Assembly: GCA_029864335.1 (NCBI GenBank)
Contig: JAOTTS010000009.1
Coordinates: forward strand, 1-64,000
DNA: 64,000 bases
Reading direction: 5' to 3'
Source of the DNA: Candidatus Nitrosopumilus sp.
GTDB taxonomy: Archaea; Thermoproteota; Nitrososphaeria; Nitrososphaerales; Nitrosopumilaceae
Shown here: positions 21,268 through 54,019 of the stretch, in pieces
Numbering within the stretch: the first letter of the stretch is position 1
Layout of the letters: each line of letters begins with the position of its first letter
Notes under the pieces: generated by a model
What the model saw: the letters and a program-made list of their open reading frames with translations, nothing else
What the model was told of the DNA's origin: nothing
The model's database searches: none
Translations under genes and position numbers: made by a program

Positions 21268-22914
21268 CTATTCCATCCCCATTCCGGGCATGCCTCCCAT
21301 TCCTCCTTGAGGTGGAGCAGATGATCTTGATGATGCAACAACGTTATCGATTCGCAGTATCATGTTTGCAGTCTCAGTAGCTGACTTTATTATCTGCTCT
21401 TTTACCTTGACTGGCTCTATTATGCCTAGTTTCTCAAAATCTGCAATTATTCCATTAATTACATCCACGCCAGTGAATTTCTCTCCTTTGCTCTGTCTTG
21501 ACCGTAATTGCGTAATTGTATCAATAGGATTCATTCCAGCATTTCTTGCAAGTGCAAGTGGAATGGATTCCATGGCGTCAGCAAACTTTTCAACTGCAAG
21601 CTGGTCCCTCCCAGAAAGTGACTTTGACCAATCTCTGAGTTTTAGTGCAATGAATGCCTCAGGGGCTCCGCCGCCATAGACTATCTTTGGTTTTTCAATT
21701 ACATCCTTTACAACCATCAATGCATCATGCATTGACCTGTCTGCCTCATCAATCACTCTTTGAGTGCCACCTCTTAGCAATATGCTGATTGCCTTTGGAT
21801 TCTTGCATCCTTCAATGAACACCCAATTGTCCTCCTCAACTCTTTTCTCCTCCACATTTTCTGCCAGACCCAACTCTGTATCATTTAAATCATCAACTCT
21901 TCCCACTATTCTGCCTCCAGTGGCTTTTGCAAGTTTTGTCATGTCACTTTCCTTGATTCGTCTAACTGCAAGTATTCCCTCCTTGCTCAGATAATGCTGA
22001 ATAATGTCATCTATTCCCTTTTGGCACAAAACAACATTAGCGCCAGTTGATTTAATCTTGCTTGCCATATCTTTGAGCATCTGATTTTCTTCTTCCATGA
22101 ATGACTTTATCTGGTTGGGGGTAGAGATGTTTAGCTTTGCTTCAAACTCTGTCTTTTTAATCTCTAGGGCCTCATTGATTAAAGCAATCTTTGCATTCTC
22201 AATTCTTCGCGGCATGCCGCTATGAACTATTTCCTTGTCAAGTATGATACCACTTACTAACTCACTGTCAGAAATTGAACCCCCCGTCTTTTTTTCTATC
22301 TTTATGTTGTCAAGATTTACCTTGAATATTCCATTTTTCTCTTCAATGACGGCCAATACTGCATTGACTGCCAGTTTGGCAAGATCAGTTGCTTCAATTG
22401 ATACAAGCTTTGTCTGCATTGACGTGTTTGCAATCTTTTCAAGTATTTCCTTGTCTTTTGGTTCAAAGTTTATTGTAATTTCAGTCAAAAATTCCATTGC
22501 CTTCTTTGAGGCCTTTTTGTAACCCTCGGCAATTATTACTGGATGAATGTCATCATCAATTAATGATTCTGCCTTTTCAAGCAGAGCCCCTGCCAAGACA
22601 ACTGAAGATGTTGTACCATCTCCCACCTCACTATCTGTAGCTTTGGCTACTTCCACCATCATCTTTGCAGCGGGATGCTGCACGTCAATCTCTTTTAGAA
22701 TGGTTGCACCATCATTTGTAATCGTAATGTCCCCGATTGAATCTACAAGCATCTTGTCCATCCCTCTTGGTCCAAGGCTTGTCTGAATAATTTCAGCAAT
22801 TAGTTTTGCTGCCCTGATGTTGTTTCTTTGTGCATCACGTCCGCGTGATTGTCTTGTTCCTTCTTTAAGCAAAATTATAGGAACACCCTCCGGTGTTGTT
22901 CCAACTTGAGACAT
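21268..22914 (-). CDS. thsA: Thermosome subunit (group II chaperonin)
   Basis: 548 aa. [35 protein letters not shown] and GDGTTS are group II chaperonin motifs, and a GGMGGMPGM tail closes the protein. ATP-driven folding chamber in the cytosol. A TATA-like AATAAATATAT at about 22934-22946 lies 20-30 nt before the ATG, so the mRNA is probably almost leaderless. Faces the Hsp20 genes on both sides. Confidence 0.97.
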
Positions 22915-52463: not shown

Positions 52464-52622
52464 TTGAATATCTATGATACAAAATCCATCTCATGTGCAA
52501 TCTGTGGACAAACAATTGGTGAAGTTGATTATGATGCAGAGATTATTCGTCCAAAATGTGGCCAATGCTCAAATCCTACTCCTCACGTTAAAGACAAAAT
52601 GCCTTATTTGATTTCTCACTAG
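52464..52622 (+). CDS. Small zinc-ribbon protein
   Basis: 52 aa from TTG 52464. CAICGQTIGE and KCGQCSNP give two Cys pairs about 21 residues apart. Divergent from the membrane microprotein. The start codon is uncertain. Confidence 0.5.
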   Translation: MNIYDTKSISCAICGQTIGEVDYDAEIIRPKCGQCSNPTPHVKDKMPYLISH

Positions 52623-52646: not shown

Positions 52647-52666
52647 CCATAACAAGATAATTAAAT

Positions 52667-52756
52667 GGCGTAACCCCATTTTTGCAGAACGCTGAGAGAT
52701 TACCTCTCTTGCCAGGTCAAAGACCTGTTTACCATTTTTGTTCTGTGTGTTACGCC
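52667..52756 (+). ncRNA. Predicted structured RNA with nested stems and two hairpins
   Basis: 90 nt. Closing stem GGCGTAAC (52667-52674) with GTTACGCC (52749-52756), 8 pairs. Second stem GCAGAAC (52684-52690) with GTTCTGT (52740-52746), 7 pairs. Within it, hairpin GAGAG-ATTAC-CTCTC (52694-52708) and hairpin CAGGTC-AAA-GACCTG (52713-52727). GC content is far above that of the surrounding gap. A further GATGTC-TAGT-GACATC stem follows at 52774-52789. No known family recognised. Confidence 0.6.
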
Positions 52757-53077
52757 GCCTATTCAACATGTCGGATGTCTAGTGACATCAAACATCCTTA
52801 GTAATTGAGATATTTAATATTTAATGCAATACTTTTGAACATTTGTTTAATCAGGGTTGTATACTTTTTTGGATCCAATTCCGTCTACAAAGTTCTCCAT
52901 TCGTTATGCATTGGTTTGACGGAATTAAATTATGATTAGAAGAAAGATACTATTTTTGTATTTATTACGTAAAACAGAATACAAATGAAATTATGCAAAA
53001 CCACTAGAATTGCTAAATTGTGGGTCTTTTTTTTTAAAATTTAGATCAGACTTTAGTGTTATTTTGACGTATCTTAT

Positions 53078-53160
53078 ATAACGAGGAAATGCTGTCAATC
53101 GCAGAACTGGGTGGCAGGTGGTAATGGAATAGTTTTGTTTTCCAGTCATGTCCTCGTTGT
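53078..53160. ncRNA. Weaker structured-RNA candidate
   Basis: GC-rich island in an AT-rich gap. AACGAGGA (53080-53087) pairs with TCCTCGTT (53151-53158), then one mismatch and ATG/CAT; the interior offers ACTGG/CCAGT. A TATATAA overlaps its left end, which is the wrong place for a plus-strand promoter. Strand uncertain. Confidence 0.3.
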
Positions 53161-53192
53161 CCTATGATTGATAGTTAGTACGGTGTAAAAAA

Positions 53193-54019
53193 TCAAATCA
53201 GTTTAACATGCTGTATGTATTCTTTGTAGCGATTACGAATAGTCACTCCTGTTATTCCGTAAACTTTTGAAATCTTTTGTTGAGATAAATTTAAACCTGT
53301 TTTGATGCCTGCCATGTAGATTACAGTGGCTGCAACTGCATCGGGTTTTTTTCCTGCAGTTAATTTTTTCTCCTTTAGGGTATCGAAAATGTTTATTGCT
53401 TCCCGTTTTGTATTCTCAGGTATTTCTAAATTATTTGCAATCTTTACAATACATTTGATTGGATCTGGTACCGATACAGTAAGCCTAAGATTTTGAAACA
53501 ACATTCTATAGTTTTTTGCAATTGATCTTCTATGTTCTTGAAGATTTTCTGAAATGTCCATGATCGTCCGTGTGGCATCCATCTCTCTGCATGCCACATA
53601 CACACATGCTCCAACTACTCCATTAATGCTTCTGCCACGAATTAATTGGGCTCTAGCAGCTTTTCTATAGAGATAAGATGATCTTTCCATAATTGCATCT
53701 GACAAACCTAATTTCTCTCTTAGTTTTTCCATCTCAGATAAGGCGGTTCTTAGATTTCGTTCCGAAGAATTTTTTGTTCGACTTCTTGCATCCCATAATC
53801 TCTTATCCGGATATTACTGGCATTTTGTAATGCCAGTGCATCCAAAAATAGTACGGATGTCTGTCCATTTTTGTATCTAAGCAAAGTTTTTCTATAACGC
53901 TCCACTTTATTCTTTGAGAGGTAAATGTCATCAGAACTTTTATCGTTCATATTTTGTAATCCTCCATTTGTGTAAAAGGAGCATTTTTTCTTCATTATGC
54001 GCCGCAGACTTGAACACAT
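53193..54019 (-). pseudogene. Degenerate TFB without zinc ribbon
   Basis: The C-terminal part (53193-53732) has both cyclin repeats: IRGRSINGVVGACVYVACREM, AGKKPDAVAATVIYMAGI and the HTH GITGVTIRNRYKEY. In the same frame upstream, DKRLWDARSRTKNSSERNLR is clear TFB sequence, but a TAA lies before it and there is no start codon. A second frame (53750-54019) supplies the N-terminal part without any CxxC zinc ribbon. Broken paralogue, or an unusual short TFB starting at ATG 53732. Confidence 0.6.

Follow-up and report, generated by a model that had tools for sequence, protein, structure and literature searches.

A conserved structured RNA of the Nitrosopumilaceae with a leaderless nine-codon open reading frame at its predicted 5' end

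The 64,000 nt stretch of Candidatus Nitrosopumilus sp. DNA analysed here, the window, is shown by comparison with related copies to carry a standalone gene on its minus strand, between predicted ends at approximately 52789 and 52657, which appears to specify a structured RNA of around 130 nt. This RNA belongs to a family that is new to Rfam and is present in nearly all sampled genomes of the Nitrosopumilaceae, described as being among the most abundant marine archaea (PMC6593220). From 5' to 3', its plan consists of a nine-codon open reading frame (ORF), a basal helix (P1), a second helix (P2), a three-way junction from which hairpins P3 and P4 extend, and a U-rich end (Table 1). We regard the gene, its strand and its fold as practically certain to be correct. 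If a leaderless ORF of fixed length but free sequence is indeed under selection together with a folded RNA, it would represent a new tie between a regulatory RNA and the ribosome.

Table 1. Parts of the RNA gene in the window; the coordinates are those of the window, and the sequences are read on the minus strand
Feature	Sequence	Position	Strand	Basis and conservation
TATA box	TTAAATA	52811..52817	-	same place in essentially all copies
Leaderless micro-ORF, peptide MSLDIRHVE	ATGTCACTAGACATCCGACATGTTGAATAG	52759..52788	-	in-frame ORF of 8-9 codons, same place in every intact copy; here ATG TCA CTA GAC ATC CGA CAT GTT GAA TAG, read from 52788 to 52759
P0, 5' hairpin inside the micro-ORF	GATGTC-ACTA-GACATC	52774..52789	-	fold; helix weakly conserved (69% of cells pair across the family)
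P1, 5' strand	GGCGUAAC	52749..52756	-	fold and family covariation
P1, 3' strand	GUUACGCC	52667..52674	-	fold and family covariation
P2, 5' strand	CAGAAC	52740..52745	-	fold and family covariation
P2, 3' strand	GUUCUG	52685..52690	-	fold and family covariation
J2/3, A-rich junction	AAAAAUGGUAAA	52728..52739	-	possible pairing with the 3' tail
P3 hairpin	CAGGUC-UUU-GACCUG	52713..52727	-	sequence and length variable; 7 of 7 pairs change on both sides
P4 hairpin	GAGAG-GUAAU-CUCUC	52694..52708	-	98.4% of cells pair; several columns are invariant
3' tail, U-rich	AUUUAAUUAU	52657..52666	-	CGCC followed by a U-rich stretch in most copies

Fold and strand of the element

A preliminary description of the DNA had marked positions 52667-52756 as a GC-rich island in which two nested helices, of eight and seven pairs, close two tight hairpins. 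The helices and hairpins are present as claimed: GGCGTAAC/GTTACGCC (8 bp) and GCAGAAC/GTTCTGT (7 bp, one of them G-U) are stacked, and the same region contains the GAGAG/CTCTC and CAGGTC/GACCTG hairpins. The fold is far above chance, with a z-score of about -6: positions 52660-52765 read on the plus strand gave -34.1 kcal/mol, against -17.9 +/- 2.9 kcal/mol for shuffled sequences (z -5.6), and positions 52663-52756 gave z-scores of -6.4 on the minus strand and -6.5 on the plus strand. The G+C excess is also real but modest, the element having a content of 0.40-0.43, measured per 100 bases, against 0.24-0.33 in the surrounding AT-rich stretches; the neighbouring short gene has 0.36-0.38 on the same measure. 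As the element is nearly palindromic, its strand is not readable from folding energy.

Two covariance models of the family were constructed, R1 from the first 12 copies and a better one, R2, from 61 divergent copies, with P3 placed by hand in the latter. Among the 61 distinct copies, changes on both sides were found at 27 of the 38 proposed pairs, amounting to 178 cells compared with 50.6 in shuffles, none of 500 of which reached the observed value, and when partners were slid out of register the proportion of cells that paired dropped from 87% to 38-46%. P1, P2 and P4 were each paired in 92-98% of cells; both sides had changed at seven of the ten pairs of P1 (92% of cells paired) and at four of the seven pairs of P2 (97.6%), while P4 is the most conserved part of the RNA.

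The same alignment identifies the strand. In the minus-strand reading of P1-P4, G-U combinations outnumber A-C by 104 to 25 (61 copies, with one invariant G-U pair left out), and by 61 to 9 in P1 and P2 together; because the 104 G-U cells would be A-C mismatches on the plus strand, the RNA is the minus strand of the window. This strand has the conserved TTAAATA upstream and, downstream, CGCC followed by a U-rich stretch. The preliminary description thus had the strand wrong: the TATA-like sequence that it placed at the right distance on the plus strand is not a conserved promoter, the conserved one being that in Table 1, and the further stem that it noted does exist, as P0, but at the 5' end of the transcript rather than behind the element. 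Conservation, covariation, synteny and the promoter lend strong support to its central proposal, a structured RNA with a function, and an absence from the nearest relatives, which it had named as grounds for abandoning the idea, was not what the comparison found.

The U-rich tail probably represents the 3' end and terminator of the RNA. Pairing between J2/3 and this tail (AAUG/CAUU, or AAAG/CUUU in relatives) is tentatively suggested by additional complementarity and covariation within the close group, where one pair is AU in 26 cases and UA in 12; distant genera did not bear out this putative pseudoknot, and nearly as high a score was obtained from slid controls.

Distribution, known families and genomic sites

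A DNA search of 61 genomes located the element in 11 further members of the genus, and once more within the genome of the window itself. R1 matched 166 of 200 genomes of Nitrosopumilaceae and had no match in other families of the order. Of 300 genomes sampled across the order, 127 had R2 matches, all of them Nitrosopumilaceae; only five genomes of this family were listed without a match (of about 132 sampled), and none of about 168 genomes from other families of the order had one, the E-values of both custom models being rough. The matches from an independent scan were named Nitrosopumilus, Nitrosarchaeum and other Nitrosopumilaceae, with two labelled as Nitrososphaeraceae by their depositors, a label taken as deposited. 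Complete genomes mostly harbour two to four copies, and single copies occur in several genera; three loci, at 22395-22537, 690168-690307 and 488157-488287, all on the plus strand, are found in G106, which we take to be the genome of the cultured strain N. maritimus. For the copy in the window, the score was 73.4 bits under R1 and 93.9 bits under R2, but this copy was in the training sets of both, such that the independent evidence for it is its sequence match to relatives. Nitrosopumilaceae genomes without a detectable copy include G064 and G086 (0.8 Mb each), G070 and G073; it is possible that the RNA was lost through genome reduction in the first two, which are strongly reduced.

No match was found in the window at the gathering thresholds of Rfam 15, and relaxing the search to E<=10 produced just two matches, both unrelated, which fell far short of their cut-offs and did not lie over the element. 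Archaeal RNase P RNA (RF00373) and SRP RNA (RF01857) were considered and rejected, as the genes of this genome for them lie elsewhere (on contig C45 and at the end of C22 for the former, on C57 for the latter), as were tRNA and tmRNA, ARAGORN detecting none in the window. Inspection by eye found no box C/D or H/ACA arrangement in the element, and there was no Rfam match to one. The RNA was not reported in the literature searched, largely the main texts of open-access articles, and neither Nitrosopumilus, Cenarchaeum nor Crenarchaeota is named in the main text of Weinberg 2010; the RNA may have been seen before as an abundant intergenic transcript.

The copies can be divided into two types. Type I copies are found mainly at two ancient sites that are syntenic across genera, one flanked by an SDR-like gene and by a small gene that is convergent, the other beside a convergent gene encoding MIKSSEIKKIVNDYSDVKIGVLGSHSALEIMDG..., which is probably purP. 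The divergent type II copy is situated between two genes that we take, from their sequences, for aroC and aroA; it follows the same overall plan, except that P1 and P2 form one continuous helix of 11 bp. Type II copies (L165-L177, for instance L166:4158-4288) also contain a strongly conserved ...GGAGAATGCTTTTCA...TATACAGGGTCGCGCC stretch, and have their own class of nine-codon ORF, MxKRVNxxx. At 97 of 113 loci the first gene downstream is convergent with the RNA, which excludes a general role as a cis-acting leader. The copy in the window is an additional and more diverged paralogue of type I; a gene for the transcription factor TFB (TFIIB) lies upstream of it. Elsewhere in the same assembly are one canonical copy of type I (contig C46), another extra one of this type (C40) and one of type II (C9). 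This assembly contains two RNase P RNA genes (L072 and L073, on C45 and C22), one of them at a contig end; this is a sign of strain mixture, and the C40 copy may consequently belong to another strain.

The nine-codon open reading frame

A conserved leaderless ORF at the 5' end of the RNA had been missed by the preliminary description. In intact copies its start codon lies 27-28 nt after the first T of TAAATA and its stop codon 2-5 nt before P1; in the window these distances are 28 nt, counted from position 52816, and 2 nt, with TAG as the stop. For protein ORFs in the same DNA that are 120 aa or longer, the distance from TAAATA to the ATG peaks sharply at 27-28 nt (16 of 36 sites), so the micro-ORF begins at precisely the position used by leaderless genes. 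Such starts appear to be common in the Nitrosopumilaceae.

The frame was present in all 98 type I matches (90 of them distinct), and the addition of 39 more matches, including type II, brought the total to 137, representing 93 distinct sequences, of which 92 have the ORF, with nine codons in 84 and eight in the other eight; as the copies are related, falling into about 11-17 clusters of ORF DNA at 60-70% identity, these counts overstate their independence. A pattern scan recovered the ORF in 76 of 76 complete copies, including 22 new distinct ORFs, and its three misses were cut by contig ends. The one distinct sequence without the frame, L175:4133-4265, is a decayed type I copy at the usual SDR-gene site (47.8 bits, 23% G+C), which has a premature stop in the micro-ORF; other copies in the same genome are intact, making it a natural pseudogene control.

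The variation that does occur respects the frame. Start codons are ATG, GTG or TTG, all 84 nine-codon ORFs beginning with NTG in which the T and G are invariant, and stops are TAA, TAG or TGA; TGG is absent from the stop position of these 84, though both of the bases concerned vary. Among the 90 distinct type I sequences, 77 contain stops in frame +1 and 30 in frame +2, and the probability of a shuffled micro-ORF staying open was 0.55. The flanking spacers vary by single bases, and the length of the ORF varies only by a codon. In type I the ORF overlaps hairpin P0, which could itself fix both length and bases, but type II copies retain nine codons without a comparable hairpin, so the frame is not explained by it.

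There is, by contrast, no classical coding signature, since the three codon positions are about equally variable when compared by their entropies and the third is not the most variable. The peptides, such as MFVKPLRMA, MAEKSRQMT, MQKDAKSTA and MSLDIRHVE, have no pattern common to all beyond the initial Met. Both observations suggest that selection is on the start, length and stop of the frame, and not on the peptide. Translation of the micro-ORF is strongly suggested by this pattern of conservation, and we consider it likely.

Possible function, alternatives and neighbouring features

The best reading overall, to which we would give an even chance, is that this structured RNA acts in trans, coupled to the process of translating its nonapeptide frame. 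A ribosome would load leaderless on the 5' AUG and read nine codons, and termination would place its leading edge against or over the 5' strand of P1; a single ribosome would thereby occupy the 5' part of the RNA, and its presence would oppose full closure of P1. Only 24 nt separate the first P-site position from the last when nine codons are read from a leaderless message; a ribosome footprint is longer than this, so the frame should hold about one ribosome. The selected thing would be the act of translation rather than the peptide, and the folded domain, with its invariant P4 and A-rich J2/3, would then act in trans, either regulating in a ribosome-linked manner or holding ribosomes. Such ribosome-linked action in trans is a tentative suggestion from the geometry of the RNA. 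A more specific version, in which the leaderless start, nine arbitrary codons and stop before the basal helix form a docking site for one ribosome, allowing the RNA to sense or hold initiating or terminating ribosomes and its folded domain to signal or store that state with no peptide function, is somewhat doubtful. The ribosome might alternatively stabilise the 5' end of the RNA, or the frame might be inert.

The RNA could instead be purely non-coding, in which case the AUG at its 5' end and the U-R-A that precedes P1 would be sequence or structure motifs of the RNA end that are never translated, for example an initiator and a single-stranded linker around P0. The lack of peptide conservation, third codon positions no freer than the others, the scarcity of indels in the micro-ORF region and the near co-extension of the ORF with P0, which partly covaries, are all consistent with this idea; we nevertheless consider it unlikely, as start codons change only to GTG or TTG and stops only among the three stop codons, the spacers change by single bases and the ORF only by a codon, and nine codons persist in type II copies without a comparable P0 yet are lost from the decayed copy. 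That the nonapeptide has a function of its own, as a signal or inhibitor, beside a structured 3' part seems improbable: classes of peptide do recur within a locus (MPKDIIPID-like, MSLVxKSGD-like and MxKRVNxxx-like), but all share only Met, and the loop codons vary through non-synonymous changes. Among the features by which dual-function small RNAs are recognised, an independent promoter and a structured, covarying RNA were found here, and the ORF is conserved as a start-stop frame, while selection on the peptide sequence was not found.

A cis-acting leader, riboswitch, attenuator of a neighbouring gene or elaborate transcription terminator might be expected to have the U-rich 3' end, compact three-way junction and short leader ORF seen here, as in attenuators, but is very improbable and largely excluded by the predominance of convergent downstream genes, the different neighbours of different loci, and the finding of neither regulatory codon runs nor a match to a riboswitch family. 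We give hardly any weight to an RNA on the plus strand, as first drawn, for though the near-palindromic element folds equally well in that direction, it would contain A-C mismatches in place of the excess G-U pairs, and the conserved promoter and ORF are on the minus strand, with no conserved promoter on the plus strand. Least credible of all is a mobile palindromic DNA repeat of the REP or MITE kind, or a protein-binding DNA palindrome; several near-palindromic copies per genome would fit, but these are few, occupy loci syntenic across genera, and combine conservation in single-stranded parts with wobble pairs in the manner typical of RNA, the G-U excess contradicting a DNA element. Phage, plasmid and viral collections contained no match to the element.

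Among known systems, bacterial dual-function small RNAs and proposed archaeal cases (PMC12482152) resemble this RNA in having their own promoter, an ORF, a separate structured part and no cis-regulated gene. They conserve a functional peptide, whereas here the length, start and stop are kept and the peptide is not; the frame here is also leaderless and ends just before the folded domain, unlike theirs. Ribosome profiling of Haloferax volcanii has revealed small RNAs that are occupied by ribosomes without evidence of coding (PMC12482152). These are likewise archaeal small RNAs, although ribosome association is in our case predicted from the conserved start and stop codons, and they do not form one conserved structured family as the RNA described here does. 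Neither group has a conserved ORF of fixed length and free sequence. The Tan1 ncRNA, an abundant structured RNA of 229 nt from Thalassoarchaea, in group II Euryarchaeota (PMC5069720), is similarly a structured marine archaeal RNA outside the Rfam families, the comparison being one of descriptions only. Leader-peptide attenuators likewise have a short ORF at the 5' end, immediately followed by an RNA structure that finishes in a U-rich stretch, but the present RNA has no downstream gene to regulate and no run of sensor codons, and occurs at many unrelated genomic sites. Bacterial tmRNA is likewise a stable structured RNA with a very short ORF and its own stop codon; by contrast, this RNA has no tRNA-like domain, and its ORF, which has a start codon of its own, occupies the very 5' end.

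Several further features lie around the gene in the window. A short ORF at 52476-52622 (plus strand), convergent with the RNA gene, has two CxxC pairs in a zinc-ribbon-like arrangement and no Pfam match. The TFB gene (53193-53732, minus strand; TFIIB repeat, PF00382) has its first start codon, at 53732, inside the conserved region, and the sequence just upstream reads in frame as WDARSRTKNSSERNLRTALSE, such that the gene looks 5'-truncated, frame-broken or like a short paralogue. A long imperfect inverted repeat, AACGAGGAAATG ... CATGTCCTCGTT, occupies 53070-53175, with a fold z-score of about -2 on both strands, and a 9-bp inverted repeat, AATTCCGTC ... GACGGAATT, is located at 52878-52927, between the TFB gene and the promoter of the RNA.
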